A stretch of DNA of 64,000 bases. Source: Rhizobium bangladeshense (GTDB taxonomy: Bacteria > Pseudomonadota > Alphaproteobacteria > Rhizobiales > Rhizobiaceae). The stretch's first letter is position 1. Each line of letters starts with the position of its first letter. The position numbers and the translations under genes are program-made. This document shows, piece by piece, positions 6,281 through 60,924 of this stretch. The stretch spans positions 3,041,001 through 3,105,000 of the forward strand of contig NZ_CP071612.1 in the NCBI RefSeq assembly GCF_017357245.1, written 5' to 3'. The notes beneath the pieces are model-generated. The model was not told where the DNA came from and did not search any database. It saw only the letters and a program-made list of their open reading frames with translations.

Positions 6281-8335
<2,055 letters not shown>

Positions 8336-31448: not shown

Positions 31449-31617
31449 CCTCCCGCGCCGGTTCGAATTCCTGTCGATTCCGCGATTTATGGGGTTCCGT
31501 TTGCAAATACATTTGCCTATAAGCCGCTTCTAGCCTGAAAAGACCCAGCATGCGCAACCGACCCGGTGATCTCCCACCCTGGCCGGTTTTCTGCGCAGCC
31601 AGAAAATGGATATCGCC

Positions 31618-34600
31618 ATGCCGAAGCGCCAAGACATCAAATCGATCCTCATCATCGGCGCGGGACCGATCGTCATTGGCCAGGCTTGCGAATTCGACTA
31701 TTCCGGCACCCAGGCCTGCAAGGCGTTGAAGGAAGAAGGCTACCGCGTCATCCTCGTCAATTCCAATCCTGCAACGATCATGACCGATCCGGGGCTGGCC
31801 GACGCAACTTACGTCGAGCCGATCACCCCCGAGGTCGTCGCCAAGATCATCGCCAAGGAACGCCCTGACGCGCTACTGCCGACCATGGGCGGCCAGACGG
31901 CTCTGAACACCGCCCTCTCCCTCAAGCGCATGGGCGTGCTCGACCGCTACAATGTCGAGATGATCGGCGCCAAGCCGGCGGCCATCGACATGGCCGAAGA
32001 CCGCGCGCTGTTTCGCGAGGCCATGGCTCGCATCGGCCTGGAAACGCCGCGCTCGATGCTTGCGAACGCCACCGACATCAAGGATCTGGACCGTAAGACG
32101 CACGAGGCCGAGCGCAATAAGCTGCGCGAAAGCCTTTCCGGATCCGATCTCGACAAGGCGTTGGACGAGCTGGAAAATCAGTGGAATCTCGGCGAGAGCG
32201 ACCGCAAGCAGCGCTACATGAACCACGCCATGGCGATTGCCGCCCAGGCGCTCGACCATGTCGGCCTGCCCGCTATCATCCGCCCGTCTTTCACGCTCGG
32301 CGGCACCGGCGGCGGCATCGCCTACAACCGTTCGGAATTCTTCGAGATCGTCGGCGGCGGCCTCGACGCCTCGCCGACCACCGAAGTGCTGATCGAAGAG
32401 TCCGTGCTCGGCTGGAAGGAGTATGAGATGGAAGTCGTCCGCGACAAGGCGGACAACTGCATCATCATCTGCTCGATCGAAAACATCGATCCGATGGGCG
32501 TGCATACCGGCGATTCCATCACCGTCGCGCCGGCGCTGACGCTGACCGACAAGGAATACCAGATCATGCGCAACGCCTCGATCGCGGTGCTGCGCGAGAT
32601 CGGCGTCGAGACCGGCGGCTCTAACGTCCAGTTCGCGGTCAATCCGAAAGACGGCCGCCTCGTCGTCATCGAAATGAACCCACGTGTGTCGCGTTCTTCG
32701 GCGCTTGCATCCAAGGCAACCGGTTTCCCCATCGCCAAGGTCGCGGCCAAGCTCGCCATCGGCTATACGCTGGACGAACTGGAAAACGACATCACCGGCG
32801 GCGCGACGCCCGCTTCGTTCGAGCCGTCGATCGATTATGTCGTGACAAAGATCCCGCGCTTCGCCTTCGAGAAATTTCCCGGCGCCTCGCCGGTGCTGAC
32901 CACGGCCATGAAGTCGGTCGGTGAAGTCATGGCGATCGGCCGCACCTTCGCTGAATCGCTGCAGAAGGCGCTGCGCGGCCTCGAGACCGGCCTGACCGGC
33001 CTCGACGAAATCGAGATCCCCGATTTCGAGGAAGGCGAATCCAGCCAGAACGCCATCCGCGCCGCCATCGGCACGCCGACGCCGGACCGCTTACGCATGG
33101 TCGCCCAGGCGTTGCGCCAGGGCCTCAGCATCGAAGAGGTGCATGAGGGCTGCAAGATCGATCCCTGGTTCATCGCCCAGCTCAAGAATATAGTCGACAT
33201 GGAAGCCCGCATCCGCGAGCACGGCCTGCCGGAGGATGCCGCCAACCTGCGCATGCTGAAGGCGATGGGCTTCTCCGACGCCCGCCTTGCCACGCTGACC
33301 GGCAAGCGCCCGAAGGAAGTTGCCGAACTCCGCAACGGCCTGAACGTCCGCCCCGTTTTCAAACGCATCGATACCTGTGCGGCCGAATTCGCTTCGCCGA
33401 CCGCTTACATGTATTCGACCTACGAGACGCCCTTTGTCGGCGCCGCCCGCTCGGAAGCTCAGGTCTCCGACCGCAAGAAGGTCGTCATCCTCGGCGGCGG
33501 CCCGAACCGCATCGGCCAGGGCATCGAATTCGACTATTGCTGCTGCCATGCCGCCTTCGCGCTGAAGGATGCAGGCTATGAAGCGATCATGATCAACTGC
33601 AATCCGGAAACCGTCTCGACCGACTACGACACGTCAGATCGCCTCTATTTCGAGCCGCTGACGGCCGAGGACGTGATCGAAATCCTGCGCGCCGAACAGG
33701 AAAAGGGTGAAGTCGTCGGCGTCATCGTCCAATTCGGCGGACAGACGCCGCTGAAGCTTGCCGAGGCGCTGGAAAAGAACGGCATCCCGATCCTCGGCAC
33801 CGCCCCCGACATGATCGATCTTGCCGAAGACCGCGACCGCTTCCAAAAGCTTCTGATGAAGCTCGACCTCAATCAGCCGAACAACGGCATCGCCTATTCT
33901 GTCGAGCAGGCCCGCCTGGTCGCCGCCGAGATCGGCTTCCCGCTGGTCGTGCGCCCCTCCTACGTGCTCGGCGGCCGAGCCATGCAGATCATCCACGCCG
34001 AGAGCCAGTTGCAGACCTATCTGCTCGACACGGTGCCGGAACTGGTGCCTGAGGATATCAAGCAGCGTTACCCCAATGACAAGACTGGCCAGATCAACAC
34101 CCTGCTCGGCAAGAACCCGCTGCTCTTCGACAGCTATCTCACCCACGCGATCGAAGTCGATGTCGACTGCCTCTCCGACGGCACCGACGTCTATGTCGCC
34201 GGTATCATGGAACATATCGAGGAAGCCGGCATCCACTCGGGCGACTCGGCCTGCTCGTTGCCGCCCCGTTCGCTGTCCGTGGAACTGATCGACGAGCTGG
34301 AGCGCCAGGCAAAGGCGATGGCAAAGGCGCTCAACGTCGGGGGCCTGATGAACGTCCAGTTCGCCATCAAGGACGGCACGGTCTACGTTCTCGAGGTCAA
34401 CCCGCGTGCCTCGCGCACCGTGCCCTTCGTCGCCAAGACCATCGGCGCGCCGATCGCCAAGATCGCCGCCCGCGTCATGGCCGGCGAGAAACTCGATGCG
34501 ACCTTCGCCGCCTATGGGCAGAAGCCCGATCCGCGCAAGCTCAAGCATATTGCCGTCAAGGAAGCCGTCTTCCCCTTCGCTCGATTCCCCGGCGTCGACA

Positions 34601-35106
34601 CGCTGCTCGGCCCGGAAATGCGCTCGACCGGTGAAGTGATCGGTCTCGACACCGATTTTGCGTTGGCCTTCGCCAAGTCGCAGCTCGGCGCCGGCGTCGA
34701 ACTGCCGCGCGATGGAACGGTCTTCGTTTCCGTGCGCGACGAGGACAAGCCGCGCGTGCTGCCGGCAATCCGCATCCTCGTCGAAGAGGGCTTCAAAGTG
34801 CTGGCGACCGGCGGCACCGCCCGCTTCCTCGGCGAAAACGGCATCACCGCCACCAAGATCAACAAGGTTCTGGAGGGCCGCCCGCACATCGAGGACGCCA
34901 TCCGCAACCGCCAGGTCCAGCTCGTCATCAACACTACCGACGGCAACAAGGCGATCTCGGACTCCAAGTCGTTGCGCCGCGCGACGCTGATGCAGAAGGT
35001 GCCCTATTACACGACGATGGCCGGCGCCGAAGCCGCCGCCCAGGCGATCAAGGCGCTGAGGGCAGGCAATCTCGAAGTCCGGCCGCTGCAGAGCTACTTC
35101 GCTTGA
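31618..35106 (+). CDS. carB: Carbamoyl-phosphate synthase large subunit
   Basis: A 1162-residue enzyme from ATG 31618 ([20 protein letters not shown]); ATG 31606 would add four residues. It joins bicarbonate, ammonia from CarA and two ATP into carbamoyl phosphate. Two homologous ATP-grasp halves are evident, the first starting '[28 protein letters not shown]' and the second '[28 protein letters not shown]', each followed by '[11 protein letters not shown]' or '[12 protein letters not shown]'. The C-terminal MGS-like allosteric domain begins around '[27 protein letters not shown]'. Full length. It stands alone, separated from carA by 12 kb. Confidence 0.97.
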
Positions 35107-35203: not shown

Positions 35204-36673
35204 TCAGCCGGAATCAATTTGTTTGACTGATGCCATAAGCCGCTGAATTTTCAGCATATCCACACGAAACCGTGCCATCTCTTCCGCCTTCAGCCGCTCG
35301 TCCGGAATGCGCAGGAGATAGGATGGATGCACGGTCACGAAGAGCGTGCGCCCTCCCTCGATCGCCATCGCCTTCCCCCTGACATCCTGCAGGCGCTCCT
35401 TCACATCGGTCAGCGCCGCAAGCGCCGTCGCCCCCATCGCGACGATGAGTTTCGGCTTGACGAGCGCCAACTCCAGATCAAGCCACCGGCGGCAATGCTT
35501 CACCTCCCCCATGTTGGGCTTCTGGTGGATGCGGCGCTTGCCGCGTGGCTCGTATTTGAAATGCTTTACCGCATTGGTGACGTAGAGCGTCGACCGGTCG
35601 ATGCCAGCCTCCGATATCACCTGATCAAGAAGCCTGCCGGCTGGACCAACGAAGGGACGCCCTGCAATATCCTCCTGATCGCCCGGCTGTTCGCCGACGA
35701 ACATGACCTGCGCATCCTGCGGCCCTTCGCCAAATACCGTCTGCGTCGCATTGGCGTGAAGCGGGCAGCGCGTGCAGACGGCGGCTTCCGCGCGCAGTGC
35801 TTCCCATGTGCCCGCCGGAGCATCAGGTTCTGCGGGGAGATTGCGTGCGGCCTCCTGTAAGCGGTCGTGAAAAGGCAGCGATTGCGTCGTCTCCCGCGCT
35901 ACCATCTCCCGCACCTTGCTTTCGGCCGAGGCAATCAAGTCAGGAATGAGATCGGCTTCCGGCAGGTTCTTCCAGTACTTCTTCGGCATCTCCGCCTGCA
36001 TTGCCTTCACCTTCAAACGCGCCGGATTGAAGATGCTGGAATAGTAGGTGCGCCAGAGTTCGTCGGTGGCGTCGCTGAGATCAGGCTTTTCGCACGGCTC
36101 GTCGGCAATCGTCAGCCGATCCCCGTCCCAGGCGGCCGATCCCTTGGGCGTAACAATCAGCCAGTCCATATCGGTGAAACGCCGCTGGAAGAAGGGAGCG
36201 GTGCGCCTGACGATATGATGGTCCGGCTCAAACCAGGCGAGGAATTTTCGGCGACCCGCCGATACCGCCCCGACTTCCTTGAAGCGGACGAAAGCCGTCA
36301 TCTTGTGCGCGTCGCGGCGAACGTTCTTCGCCATCAGACGGGCACGCGCGACATCCTCGTCAGACGCAACCTCAAGCAGTCGCCGGTCCAGCTGCAGCCG
36401 CCAAAGCAGACGGTAAAGCAGGGAAAACCGCGCCGTATCGCAATGGCAAAGAACCGTCTCCGCAAGCTCGATGAAGGCGGGCGGCACCGTCATCGGCTTG
36501 CGTGATGCCGCCGGCGCCGGCGGCATGGCGTCACGTCGAAACGACAGATCGGCCTCGGCGCTTTTTTCGCGCCAGTCGATCTCCTCGGGCAAAATGCCGG
36601 CGGCCGCCAAGGCGCGTGCGGCATCACGCCATTCGGCAAGCTCTCCGCGTCCCGAAAGCACGACCCGGCGCAT
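35204..36673 (-). CDS. udgX: DUF4130-UdgX fusion: UdgX-type uracil-DNA glycosylase/cross-linking protein
   Basis: A 489-residue protein from ATG 36673, overlapping the radical SAM stop (TGATG). Residues 1 to about 270 are a DUF4130 (TIGR03915-like) domain: 'LLYRLLWRLQLDRRLLEVASDEDVARARLMAKNVRRDAHKMTAFVRF'. From about 295 a uracil-DNA glycosylase domain carries Cys300, Cys303 and Cys394 for an iron-sulphur cluster, the family-4 motif 'GEQPGDQED' at 327-335, and 'HPSYLLR' from His449. The insert 'GKRRIHQKP' with His383 is the UdgX R-loop; in mycobacterial UdgX that His attaches covalently to the abasic sugar after uracil removal. Where family-4 enzymes have Cys in 'VVKC', this protein has His371. 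SOS-controlled promoter upstream of its partner gene. Confidence 0.9.
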   Translation of the reverse strand: MRRVVLSGRGELAEWRDAARALAAAGILPEEIDWREKSAEADLSFRRDAMPPAPAASRKPMTVPPAFIELAETVLCHCDTARFSLLYRLLWRLQLDRRLLEVASDEDVARARLMAKNVRRDAHKMTAFVRFKEVGAVSAGRRKFLAWFEPDHHIVRRTAPFFQRRFTDMDWLIVTPKGSAAWDGDRLTIADEPCEKPDLSDATDELWRTYYSSIFNPARLKVKAMQAEMPKKYWKNLPEADLIPDLIASAESKVREMVARETTQSLPFHDRLQEAARNLPAEPDAPAGTWEALRAEAAVCTRCPLHANATQTVFGEGPQDAQVMFVGEQPGDQEDIAGRPFVGPAGRLLDQVISEAGIDRSTLYVTNAVKHFKYEPRGKRRIHQKPNMGEVKHCRRWLDLELALVKPKLIVAMGATALAALTDVKERLQDVRGKAMAIEGGRTLFVTVHPSYLLRIPDERLKAEEMARFRVDMLKIQRLMASVKQIDSG

Positions 36674-37905
36674 CACAGCAACGACAGTTGCTCAGGCTGC
36701 GGCCCGAACATGGCGCGCAGATCCGGCCGGTCGATCAGCCGTCGCGGCGACCAGCCTTCCGCCGAGATGAAGGACCGGACCTTTTTGATTGAGACGCCGA
36801 GCCGGGAGAGATCATCGAGCCGTAGGCGCCGAAATCGGCGCGCCGAGACGATCGCCTTGACTGTTTTGGTGCCGAGACCGGGGACACGCAGCAACCGCTC
36901 GCGCTCGGCCTTGTTAATGTCGACCGGAAATTCCCCGCGATTCGCAAGCGCCCAGGCAAGCTTCGGATCGAGATTGAGATCGAGCATGCCGCCCGCCTGG
37001 TTTGCGGTGATCTCCTCGATGCCGAAACCGTAGAACCGATAGAGCCAGTCGGCCTGGTAGAGCCGATGTTCGCGCATCAGCGGCGGCTTGATCAGCGGCA
37101 GGTTTTTAGAGGCGTCGGGGATGGGGCTGAAGGCGGAATAATAGACACGCTTCAGTCCATAGCTGCTGTATAGCCGGCTGCTGCTGGCAAGGATGGTCGC
37201 GTCATTGGCTCCATCCGCCCCGACGATCATCTGTGTGCTCTGGCCAGCCGGGACGAAACGCTGGCGTTTCCTGGTCTTGAGCGTCGGCTCATCAGCCGCC
37301 TCGATCTTCAATCTGAGATCCGCCATAGATCGCCTGATATTGGCGGGCTTCTTTTCCGGCGCGAAGCGGGAAATCCCGCTGTCGGTCGGCAGCTCGATGT
37401 TGAGCGACAGCCTGTCGGCATGAAGCCCCGCCTCCTCCATCAGATGCGGCGATGCCTCAGGGATCGCTTTGAGATGGATATAGCCGCGGAAATTATGCGT
37501 CAGGCGCAGCTCGCGGACGATGCGGACCATCTCCTCCATCGTATAATCGGACGAGCGGATGATGCCGGAGGAAAGGAACAGGCCTTCGATATAATTGCGG
37601 CGGTAGAATTCCAGCGTGAGCCAGACGACCTCCTCGGCGGTAAAGCGTGCCCGCTCGACATTGCTGGAGGAGCGATTGACGCAATAGGCGCAGTCGTAAA
37701 TGCAGAAATTGGTCAGCAATATCTTCAGAAGCGAAATGCACCGCCCGTCCGGTGCATAGGCGTGACAGATGCCGGATCCCTCCGTCGAGCCGAGCCCGCC
37801 GCTCACGCTTGAATCTCGCTTAACCGTGCCGCTGGAAGCGCAGGACGCGTCATATTTTGCGGCGTCGGAAAGGATGGCGAGGCGTTCGGCAAGCGACTTC
37901 TTCAT
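36673..37905 (-). CDS. Putative DNA modification/repair radical SAM protein with C-terminal HhH motifs
   Basis: A 410-residue protein from ATG 37905 ([20 protein letters not shown]); GTG 37917 is an alternative but lies inside the LexA box. The radical SAM cluster motif is CxxxCxxC: Cys68, Cys72, Cys75 in '[10 protein letters not shown]'. Next come '[20 protein letters not shown]' and '[12 protein letters not shown]', typical of the TIGR03916-like family. The C-terminus holds helix-hairpin-helix DNA-binding sequence ('[43 protein letters not shown]'). The family always tends to sit beside DUF4130/UdgX genes, as here. Its reaction is unknown; DNA binding plus radical chemistry plus SOS control suggests lesion repair. 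Confidence 0.88.
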
Positions 37906-37913
37906 TCTTTTGT

Positions 37914-37928
37914 TCACTATACGTTCTA
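37914..37928 (-). promoter_or_regulatory. LexA (SOS) box of the radical SAM-udgX operon
   Basis: On the plus strand GTTC (37914-37917), seven bases, GTTC (37925-37928); on the coding strand GAAC-GTATAGT-GAAC. This is the exact alphaproteobacterial LexA direct-repeat operator. It overlaps the predicted -10 and lies eight bases upstream of the chosen ATG. Confidence 0.85.
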
Positions 37929-37944
37929 ATGTACATAGTCAACC
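37918..37944 (-). promoter_or_regulatory. Predicted sigma-70 promoter of the radical SAM-udgX operon
   Basis: On the minus strand TTGACT (37939-37944) and TATAGT (37918-37923) with 15-base spacing, slightly short. The start point would fall close to ATG 37905, so the leader is very short or absent. LexA bound at 37914-37928 would block it directly. Confidence 0.6.
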
Positions 37945-57613: not shown

Positions 57614-59125
<1,512 letters not shown>

Positions 59126-59296
59126 ATGACAAAGCCGCACAGCAAGCCTTTCAAGCCACGGCTCCGTGATGGCGCGCCGCTCCCCGCAGCCGGGCGCCCC
59201 AGCGGCGAGAACCTGCCCAGCATCATCTTTCTCTCGATCCGATGCCGGCGCGTACCGCGCCGCGTCGAGTGTCCGGGAGGACACGGCTTCAGATGA
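59126..59296 (+). CDS. Small basic hypothetical protein (56 aa), coupled to the GT39 gene
   Basis: ATG 59126 (GGTGAAG upstream) opens a 56-residue frame starting MTKPHSKPFKPRLRDGAPLP and ending HGFR, whose TGA at 59294-59296 overlaps the ATG of the next gene in an ATGA. The peptide is Arg/Pro-rich and not a recognised family. It may be a leader or coupling ORF for the membrane glycosyltransferase, or a chance frame; the overlap is the main evidence. Confidence 0.35.
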   Translation: MTKPHSKPFKPRLRDGAPLPAAGRPSGENLPSIIFLSIRCRRVPRRVECPGGHGFR

Positions 59297-60924
59297 CGGA
59301 CGCCCGGGGATTGAATCAGGTCGAAGGTCAGCAATATCAGCACCGGACGACCAGCCGGAGCATCGCCGCTCGCAGCTACATCAGCATCGACACGGCAATC
59401 TTGCTTGGAATCGTGTTTATCGCGATCGTCTTCCGGTTCTACAAGATCACCTTGCCGCTGGTCGACGGCTTCAGCTGGCGCCAAATAAGCACCGCGATGA
59501 TGGCCGATAATTTCCAGCAGCGTAGCTGGAATATCTTCTTTCCAGAGGTCAGCTGGAGCGGCCCCGGGCCAAGTTATCAGGGCCGCGAGTTCCAGATTGT
59601 CAGCTATCTCACCGCCCTGCTCTACCAACTCTTCGGCTGGCACGACTGGTTCGGCCGCGTGGTTGCGGCCATCTTCGGTCTGGTGACGGTGGTTTCGTTG
59701 CACAGGCTGACAGCGCTGTGCTGGGACAAGATGCACGCCCACGCGGCGGCACTTGCCTATGCGCTGATGCCGGCGGCGATCATGATCGACAGCTCGTTTC
59801 TTCCCGATCCAGCGATGCTCGCCTTGGTGACCCTTGGCGTTTGGCTGTTCGTCAAGTACTGGGCCGGTGGCAGCGGCTGGCTCTTGCCGCTCGCCACCGC
59901 CAGCTTTTCGCTCGGCGCGCTGTCGAAGCCACCGGGCATCGCTGCCGGCGCCGTCATCTTTTACCTGATGGTCTGCTGGATTCTGGAGAGGAAGTGGAAG
60001 CAGGCACGCTTGGTTTTCCTCTTCGGGCTTTTGAGCCTTGCCATCATCGGCGCTTATTTCAGCTGGGCGATCTATCTCGCCCGCAGCTATCCGCCGTTCC
60101 ATTTCGCTGGCAGCGGCGGCTATATCTGGGATTACGGCGTCTGGTCTTATGTCAAGGACAGGTTCTACTTCCAATCCGTCTGGAACACCTCGGTTTTGTG
60201 GTTCTATGGCTACCCGTTCATGCTGCTGTTTGCGGTTGGCTTGTGGATGCCGCTCAGCCGCGCCAAAGATCCGAGGCAACGCGCCCTTTCGGCGATTCCC
60301 TATGTCTGGCTGGCCGCGGCTGTGATCCTCTATCTGGCCGCAGCGGGCGAGATCACCAGCAATGTGTGGAACTTGCACGTCTTCCATGTGCCGGCCGCGA
60401 TGTTCTGCGGCCACGGCGCGCTTCTTCTGGCGAAGCTTTCATCGAAAACCGTTCTAAACCCGACGGTCGTGCTCCGCTCCATCTGCATCGTGATCGTCGC
60501 GGTGGGCTGGTCGACCCTTCCCCTCGTCAGGACAATGAAAAAGCCAATCGCCATGAACGGCAAGCTGCTTGGCGAGGAACTGGCGCGACTGGCCCAGCCG
60601 GGCGACCTCGTCGTCGCCATCGCGCCCGAGGTCGGCGATCCCGTCGCCGTCTACTACAGCAGGGCGCGCGGCTGGGTATTCCCGCCTGGCGGAGGCGATG
60701 CCGAATGGTCGAAATTCGTCGCCGATGACACCACCGCGATCGCCCAGCTCGAGGAACTACGCGCCCAGGGCGCGGATCTGTTCGGCGTGGCCAAGAACGC
60801 CACCGACAAGGAGGCCCGGCTGTTCCTCGAGCACCATGATGGGATTATCGATCATCTCGACAGGACCGCAACCAAGCTTGTAGATTCGGAGAATCTGTTG
60901 ATCTACAGGATCACCCGTCCTTAG
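59293..60924 (+). CDS. GT39-family (PMT/ArnT-like) membrane glycosyltransferase
   Basis: A 543-residue polytopic membrane protein from ATG 59293 (MTDARGLNQVEGQQYQHRTT), GGGAGG about 13 bases upstream. After a ~35-residue cytoplasmic lead come about ten to twelve helices ('TAILLGIVFIAIVFRFYKIT', 'VVAAIFGLVTVVSLHRLTAL', 'ALAYALMPAAIMIDSSFLPDPAMLALVTLGVWLFVKYW') and a soluble C-terminal ~130 residues. The first periplasmic loop carries 'DGFSWRQISTAMMADNF', where the usual catalytic Asp/Glu of the family lies. Such enzymes move a sugar from a polyprenyl-phosphate donor to lipid A, protein or glycan; acceptor unknown. Confidence 0.78.
   Translation: MTDARGLNQVEGQQYQHRTTSRSIAARSYISIDTAILLGIVFIAIVFRFYKITLPLVDGFSWRQISTAMMADNFQQRSWNIFFPEVSWSGPGPSYQGREFQIVSYLTALLYQLFGWHDWFGRVVAAIFGLVTVVSLHRLTALCWDKMHAHAAALAYALMPAAIMIDSSFLPDPAMLALVTLGVWLFVKYWAGGSGWLLPLATASFSLGALSKPPGIAAGAVIFYLMVCWILERKWKQARLVFLFGLLSLAIIGAYFSWAIYLARSYPPFHFAGSGGYIWDYGVWSYVKDRFYFQSVWNTSVLWFYGYPFMLLFAVGLWMPLSRAKDPRQRALSAIPYVWLAAAVILYLAAAGEITSNVWNLHVFHVPAAMFCGHGALLLAKLSSKTVLNPTVVLRSICIVIVAVGWSTLPLVRTMKKPIAMNGKLLGEELARLAQPGDLVVAIAPEVGDPVAVYYSRARGWVFPPGGGDAEWSKFVADDTTAIAQLEELRAQGADLFGVAKNATDKEARLFLEHHDGIIDHLDRTATKLVDSENLLIYRITRP

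Follow-up and report, generated by a model that had tools for sequence, protein, structure and literature searches.

Passages of PMC8565304 describe a predicted LexA-regulated two-gene operon, COG1573–COG4277, in Bacteroidetes and cite SOS regulation of this uracil-DNA-glycosylase system in Verrucomicrobia and Alphaproteobacteria. In a passage of PMC3765255, DUF4130 is presented as an enzyme predicted to be related to mutagenesis and found in association with SplB-like radical S-adenosylmethionine (SAM) proteins and uracil DNA glycosylases (UDGs), and two NCBIfam models, rSAM_link_UDG and SAM_7_link_chp, are already named for the association. The glycosylase-like protein UdgX is known for a covalent histidine link, reported in passages of PMC10359453 together with UdgX activity in Bradyrhizobium diazoefficiens. 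The locus considered here belongs to this group: in Rhizobium bangladeshense, within a 64,000-nucleotide stretch of contig NZ_CP071612.1 (positions 3,041,001 to 3,105,000, hereafter the window), a radical-SAM gene preceded by a LexA box is followed by a gene encoding a fusion of DUF4130 and UdgX. A preliminary description of the operon called it under-described. This is half true: LexA control appears in the passages of PMC8565304 and the NCBIfam models carry the name of the link, so that SOS control of the operon is already published and the association is not new. What appears to be new relative to the literature searched, which included no search aimed at UdgX optionality or at the cysteines, is that UdgX is optional, that the radical-SAM protein ends in a clamp-like peptide and that it carries extra cysteines; the last two were missed by the preliminary description. 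The literature search returned no co-mention of UdgX and radical SAM, the terms 'radical SAM' and 'clamp-binding motif' were not found together among the matches listed, and no experimental study of the radical-SAM family appeared among the listings and passages. Passages of PMC1839093 count four uracil-DNA-glycosylase-family genes in Caulobacter and contain no such operon.

The operon and its promoter lie within positions 35204–37944; the operon comprises two overlapping genes on the minus strand, both intact in the list of open reading frames (ORFs). The first (36673–37905, minus strand) encodes the radical-SAM protein, 410 amino acids long from its ATG, which belongs to the family TIGR03916 with 571.1 bits against a curated cut-off of 343.5; the closest radical-SAM proteins that bear an organism name come from Rhizobium. 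The second (35204–36673, minus strand) specifies a protein of 489 amino acids, also counted from ATG, in which two families are recognized by NCBIfam: a DUF4130 domain (35954–36649, minus strand) with 214.7 bits to TIGR03915 (cut-off 112.25) and 140 bits to PF13566 (cut-off 27), and a UdgX domain (35252–35950, minus strand) with 347.5 bits to TIGR03914 (cut-off 189.95). Stop and start codons of the two genes share the letters TGATG at 36671–36675 (minus strand), an overlap that can be read directly from the DNA. The coupled radical-SAM/DUF4130-UdgX arrangement proposed in the preliminary description, whose boundaries enclosed the radical-SAM gene and its promoter, is thereby borne out.

The composition of the module was surveyed in 299 Pseudomonadota genomes, with each family counted over its cut-off: radical SAM was found in 53, DUF4130 in 56 and UdgX in 52. 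DUF4130 is present in all 53 radical-SAM genomes; the genomes are related and Fisher co-occurrence values overstate their independence, so that the counts themselves are taken as the evidence. No UdgX was detected in 13 of the 53 genomes that have both radical SAM and DUF4130, in a search at E 1e-50 with at most nine first-look candidates scored per genome, which a diverged UdgX could escape, and 12 of the 52 UdgX genomes are without radical SAM. Nine of the 13 UdgX-less genomes were fetched and have no UdgX in the locus stretch; the DUF4130 frames of the other four (G379, G449, G472, G484) measure 299–343 amino acids, too short for a fusion. A second, partly overlapping sample of 142 genomes of the class contains radical SAM in seven, DUF4130 in six (all with radical SAM) and UdgX in 12 (six without radical SAM); the seventh radical-SAM genome, G105, which has no DUF4130, is an 85 %-complete assembly. 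In the control genome of Bacteroides ihuae, TIGR03916 and TIGR03915 were matched and TIGR03914 was not.

The same picture emerges at the level of loci. Among 147 distinct radical-SAM loci, a set that leaves out repeats of the same places, two IMG/VR loci and the new places L070 and L085, DUF4130 is fused to UdgX in 121, stands alone in 15 and is accompanied by a separate UdgX in one; a further seven have no DUF4130 in the stretch examined and three are cut. In two of these seven (L058 and L061) the contig carries DUF4130 at a distance of approximately 3 kb. A tree of 80 radical-SAM proteins, built by a quick method (of its 77 inner branches 18 are starred and 29 open, and L041 is on a long branch), implies at least 10 changes of fusion state, at least five of them imposed by starred branches; with shuffled labels 14.7 changes are required, so that the fusion state is also clustered. 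In L151 the UdgX motifs have decayed and DUF4130 is kept, while L110, L114, L117 and L098 have no fused UdgX. On these grounds, namely co-occurrence, repeated fusion changes, the decay in L151 and the four unfused loci, UdgX was rejected as the core around which the module is built. Radical SAM and DUF4130 form the constant pair, and UdgX is an optional add-on that has been lost or gained many times. The alphaproteobacterial LexA box is absent at seven of the eight stand-alone UdgX loci examined, a sample that does not extend to the UdgX-only genomes G344, G401 and G470. The eighth, L089, retains a LexA box and a C-terminal DUF4130 remnant and looks like a fossil of the operon, a scar left when radical SAM and DUF4130 were lost together. 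As a separate observation, L093, L094 and L095, from three congeneric genomes of the same order, retain the LexA box, which is now placed before DUF4130, and the radical-SAM gene was not found there.

A LexA box in the operon promoter had been claimed at the outset, and the pattern is indeed present: GTTCACTATACGTTC (GAACGTATAGTGAAC on the coding strand) lies at 37912–37926, with no strand assigned. As a stand-alone argument the box was rejected, as the bare pattern barely exceeds its control across the 6.35-Mb genome (170 matches versus 141 for the reversed motif); within the window it matches five times against a shuffle mean of 1.5, and two of 100 shuffles reach five. It is the conservation of the site, not the bare pattern, that lifts the box beyond chance and carries the SOS claim. 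In the window's own taxonomic family, where the radical-SAM gene is over cut-off in 31 of 61 genomes, an exact GAAC-N7-GAAC is present in 30 of the 30 loci fetched, starting 17–33 nucleotides before the aligned start. An exact box lies between −150 and +15 in 135 of the 142 radical-SAM loci whose upstream DNA could be read, compared with four of 142 for the reversed control motif and an expected background of 0.006 per 165-nucleotide window. All 135 fall among the 137 alphaproteobacterial loci, which include L152, labelled only Pseudomonadota; the remaining two, L113 and L130, have one mismatch, and the box is within 60 nucleotides of the start in 130.

The genome of R. bangladeshense has three matches to the LexA DNA-binding family: two at 24.8 and 22.7 bits and a clear one at 63.7 bits, whose promoter carries the same motif type, GAACACATATGGAAC. 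The operon has the attributes of a member of the alphaproteobacterial LexA regulon: a GTTC-N7-GTTC operator at its promoter, conserved in relatives, in a genome where lexA is present. Outside Alphaproteobacteria ten loci were available, one from Xanthomonas dyei and the others from nine of the 17 non-alphaproteobacterial genomes that pass the cut-off in the 299-genome set; six of the ten (L063, L066, L101, L103, L105, L106) have an Escherichia coli-type CTGT-N8-ACAG box. The operator of the radical-SAM operon thus tracks the local LexA motif, which is strong evidence for selected damage control.

A −10-like TATAGT lies within the LexA box (37916–37921, minus strand), and a −35-like TTGACT (37937–37942, minus strand) is 15 nucleotides from this hexamer; both are putative assignments. 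In column frequencies over 123 loci a hexamer resembling TATA(A/G)T is seen within the box, with T at 0.88, A at 0.88, T at 0.64 and weaker positions thereafter, and a TTG is modestly favoured (0.59, 0.43, 0.59) at the position of a −35 element with a 17-nucleotide spacer. The box is separated from the start codon by 0–6 nucleotides in 96 of 135 loci. The hexamer inside the box and this short gap suggest that LexA probably covers the −10 element and that the mRNA is probably nearly leaderless. A GTG upstream of the ATG of the radical-SAM gene, at 37917, falls within the box. A sigma-70 promoter scan returned no site at the window operon; the scan requires a spacer of 16–18 nucleotides and that of the window is 15. 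Elsewhere in the window a second AT-rich LexA-like box, GTTCTTATTATGTTC, is located at 59042–59056, approximately 190 nucleotides ahead of a 560-amino-acid ORF (59242–60924), and the same 15-mer recurs identically in the same genome at G000:C1:3293716.

The radical-SAM protein displays the cluster motif C68-x3-C72-x2-C75 (37681–37704, minus strand), identified in two alignments (A1 and A2). Across 267 other sequences C68 is kept in 266 and C72 and C75 in all. The PF04055 score, 26.9 bits, is just below the cut-off of 29.5; the CX3CX2C motif on a partial TIM barrel, with lipoyl synthase and HydE as fold neighbours, places the protein in the radical-SAM superfamily, and in a structural search the first neighbours among the matches listed are HydE, lipoyl synthase and biotin synthase. 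Near-invariance across the 267 other sequences extends to three more cysteines, C22, C47 and C56, which, accompanied by H48 and D53-G54-R55 (37738–37842, minus strand), form a candidate auxiliary iron–sulphur (Fe-S) site and suggest a second Fe-S cluster. Towards the C-terminus, approximately at residues 325–357 (36835–36933, minus strand), a weak match to a helix-hairpin-helix (HhH) is observed, and a profile search retrieves the ComEA and RuvA HhH at E 0.003–0.03.

The protein terminates in the pentapeptide QLSLL (residues 406–410; 36676–36690, minus strand), which looks like a conserved β-clamp-binding motif. The clamp consensus is given in a passage of PMC3716654 as QL[S/D]LF, typically at the extreme N- or C-terminus; QLSLL is a terminal peptide one letter off the consensus expected of DnaN clients, and QLSLF is common in other members of the family. 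The strict pattern Q[LM]xL[FL] occurs within the last 30 residues of 125 of 148 distinct radical-SAM C-termini and is absent from the 69,524 positions that make up the remainder of these proteins (169 frames, repeats included). It is also present in 116 of the 120 proteins P0121–P0240, the named ones among them being from Moraxellaceae and Bacteroidota genera. Q406 is kept in 262 of 267 sequences, and none of 168 DUF4130 frames contains the pattern.

These features are consistent with an SOS-induced, clamp-tethered radical-SAM/DUF4130 pair that would process a replication-blocking lesion at forks, a reading to which we give an even chance. Upon DNA damage LexA would be cleaved and leave the promoter, and the overlapping genes would allow the radical-SAM protein and DUF4130 to be made together. 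The former would dock on the DnaN clamp by its QLSLL or QLSLF peptide and grip DNA by the HhH. Cleavage of SAM would generate a 5'-deoxyadenosyl radical that, helped by the second Fe-S cluster and DUF4130, might reverse or modify a replication-blocking base lesion, and the fused UdgX, where present, could trap uracil or abasic intermediates. The docking, clusters, substrate and chemistry in this scheme are predictions. A fuller version, in which a two-Fe-S-cluster SOS enzyme riding the DnaN clamp uses radical chemistry, with DUF4130, to reverse or rewrite a fork-blocking lesion, is put forward more tentatively, as rather less than probable in all its parts. DNA repair, the role favoured in the preliminary description, appears to be the likeliest function.

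Besides the relatedness of the genomes and the reach of the UdgX search noted above, several points weigh against this reading. Clamp binding, Fe-S content and a DNA substrate are all predicted from motifs. Twenty-three of the 148 C-termini miss the strict clamp pattern (for example QLSLI, QQSLF and the longer QLSLAF), 17 of the 23 conforming to the relaxed form Q[LMI]x[LIMVF], and a five-residue terminal peptide could serve another purpose. The HhH, although it agrees with what the preliminary description had proposed, is below Pfam cut-offs (HHH_3 26.2 bits versus 27, HHH_5 22 versus 27). Three genomes (G389, G405, G473) have DUF4130 and no radical SAM was found in them, which leaves room for an independent role of DUF4130. 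Passages of the main text of PMC12700426, a 2025 study of the Caulobacter SOS response, do not contain the words uracil, glycosylase or radical SAM. As to the operator, the upstream regions of L041 and L104, two of the ten non-alphaproteobacterial loci, have no recognized box, and L059 and L176 have another palindrome in its place. The protein closest to the L041 radical SAM, at 96 % identity, is from Psychrobacter, a genus that belongs to Moraxellaceae. The missing box in L041 fits this origin, because Moraxellaceae have no known LexA according to a passage of PMC8565304.

The replacement palindrome, a 17-bp GTCTCA-N5-TGAGAC, stands ahead of the operon in L059 (genome G285) and in L176 (Xanthomonas dyei); the palindrome loci comprise L059/L194, L176/L193, L192, L195, L196 and L200–L226. 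Three sites were found in G285 and two in X. dyei, against none for the reversed control. The second site in G285 is between uvrA, which encodes UvrA domains, and the divergent gene for ribosomal protein L21; the third precedes a DEAD/DEAH helicase, with a divergent ORF devoid of Pfam matches on its other side. Half of the helicase gene was examined, and this half scores 487 bits to TIGR03817, under the cut-off of 874, and 22.2 to an HRQ1-type winged helix, under the cut-off of 27. In X. dyei the second site is ahead of a helicase 88.6 % identical to that of G285. In the family of G285 the palindrome is present in 87 of 119 genomes and the reversed control in none. Thirty palindrome loci were fetched, one per genome: ten have the helicase starting close by (73–89 % identity) and two have the radical-SAM gene, with L198, whose helicase is at 27 % identity, not counted and the other 18 unassigned. 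One possibility is that the palindrome acts as a damage operator in its own right, linking the radical-SAM operon with uvrA and the helicase.

Four other explanations were weighed. The one that survives best, though rather unlikely, is that the operon encodes a damage tolerance or mutagenesis factor, in which the clamp-docked protein and DUF4130 modify template bases or aid translesion polymerases. Translesion factors are typically under SOS control and bear a clamp peptide, and a passage of PMC3765255 predicts DUF4130 to be mutagenesis-related, with associates that might modify thymines. Set against this, no polymerase-like ORF adjoins the operon in the window, as judged by eye, and none of nine proteins located directly 3' of DUF4130 in UdgX-less loci matches a polymerase family, six of the nine being without any Pfam match; each of the two is a partial test.

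It is improbable, somewhat more so than a tolerance role, that the radical-SAM protein is an activase that modifies or matures DUF4130, leaving DUF4130-UdgX as the enzyme that acts on DNA. The pairing in all 53 genomes, the overlapping genes and the placement of DUF4130 on a frame separate from the radical SAM in the loci listed would agree with such a role. It is the radical-SAM protein, however, that bears the HhH and the clamp peptide, an indication that it contacts DNA directly, and DUF4130 occurs in the three genomes in which no radical SAM was found.

Direct reversal of a UV thymine dimer in the manner of spore photoproduct lyase (SPL), a radical SAM enzyme of DNA repair, has a poor chance of being correct. 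SPL is to our knowledge the only established radical SAM enzyme of DNA repair, and a passage of PMC3765255 ties DUF4130 to SplB-like proteins. However, no SPL model appeared among the NCBIfam matches, in a library whose SPL content is unchecked, the first-listed structural neighbours are HydE, lipoyl synthase and biotin synthase, with an unlisted fold being possible, and passages of PMC8565304 treat SplB (COG1533) apart from COG4277. A profile search of the PDB at E 10 returned no SPL match, which is not evidence of absence. Finally, the second idea of the preliminary description, that the pair removes or repairs the covalent UdgX–DNA adduct, draws on the fact that 121 of the 137 loci in which DUF4130 is complete have it fused to UdgX, and is very improbable as a general job, because no UdgX over cut-off was detected in 13 of the 53 genomes with the pair, 12 of the 52 genomes with UdgX are without radical SAM, the fusion state has changed at least 10 times, and none of the seven stand-alone UdgX genes examined that are without a DUF4130 remnant carries the alphaproteobacterial LexA box.

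The UdgX domain of the window is intact-looking. Its best PDB match is Mycobacterium smegmatis UdgX, 6ajo (E 1.7e-48), Foldseek retrieves 8iil (E 2.5e-20, TMt 0.85), and alignment to 6ajo reveals the motifs GEQPG, KRRIH and HPS that typify UdgX. The R-loop KRRIH with the DNA-linking histidine, aligned to the M. smegmatis protein, is at 35525–35539 (minus strand). This histidine is present in 119 of 120 classified UdgX sequences, counting L115 and L120, which read RRRIHQ, and is replaced by proline in L151; ten more sequences without the anchor are unclassified. A structure model of the fusion has a mean predicted local distance difference test (pLDDT) of 87.2 and a predicted template modelling score (pTM) of 0.49, and its structural matches, among those listed, are mostly UDG-type or unnamed. 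A Pfam scan of the DUF4130 part at E 10 yielded DUF4130 and a chance-level DUF2026 only. The genome also harbours, on another contig (C3), a second, stand-alone UdgX, L096 (G000:C3:208730-209305), with 287 bits to TIGR03914 and without a LexA box.

Downstream of the DUF4130-UdgX gene, a 1166-amino-acid ORF (31606–35106) on the opposite strand faces it, and consequently no gene of the same direction directly follows. No conserved third operon gene was found: the nine proteins directly 3' of DUF4130 in UdgX-less loci have no common Pfam family. In the Sphingomonas locus L172 a hemerythrin-domain gene (7482–7958) separates the radical-SAM gene from that for DUF4130-UdgX, and a deaminase-like ORF occupies the gap between the radical-SAM and DUF4130 genes in L150; an intervening gene is a feature of some loci, not a general one. 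Relatives of the radical-SAM gene were detected in 158 of 72,556 plasmid records, 142 of them on predicted non-mobilizable replicons, with Phaeobacter the commonest genus (58). In IMG/VR, 28 pattern matches include two radical-SAM relatives (L187, L188), for which phage carriage and host contamination are both possible. The PHROGs matches were limited to a generic radical-SAM one, a family of DNA polymerases that aligns to the UDG part, and one family whose function is unknown. With PADLOC at E 0.001 neither protein matched any family, and a role in anti-phage defence was rejected for want of such a match.

The family TIGR03916 is over cut-off in 53 of the 299 sampled Pseudomonadota genomes, with SOS-type control exerted through different operators, and the annotation 'putative DNA repair' becomes directly testable through the clamp-like tail peptide, the additional cysteines and the fact that UdgX is optional. 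If DUF4130 rather than UdgX is the core partner, a label of uracil base-excision repair would name the wrong half. The fuller version of the preferred reading, if true, would add a clamp-tethered radical-SAM DNA enzyme and, as far as we know, a second radical-SAM chemistry of DNA repair beside that of SPL.

Compared with known systems, the radical-SAM protein shares 12–20 % identity, in the matches listed, with lipoyl synthase, HydE and biotin synthase, with which it is not known to have a substrate in common and to which it adds the C-terminal HhH and the clamp-like peptide. It resembles SplB in being a radical-SAM protein in a DNA-repair context, and SplB is SOS-regulated in several species according to a passage of PMC8565304; the same source, in the passages concerned, lists SplB (COG1533) and COG4277 as separate SOS genes, and, unlike SplB, the window protein is constantly paired with DUF4130 and ends in a clamp-like peptide. 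The UdgX domain has the GEQPG, KRRIH and HPS motifs and the fold in common with M. smegmatis UdgX; the solved chains of the latter span approximately 200 residues without DUF4130, whereas the window UdgX is fused behind DUF4130 in a LexA-controlled operon. The closest counterpart is the TIGR03916/COG4277 system with TIGR03915 and TIGR03914: all three families are over cut-off in the window, the operon is the same as that in the passages of PMC8565304, and there is no difference in kind, the window operon being a typical alphaproteobacterial member.

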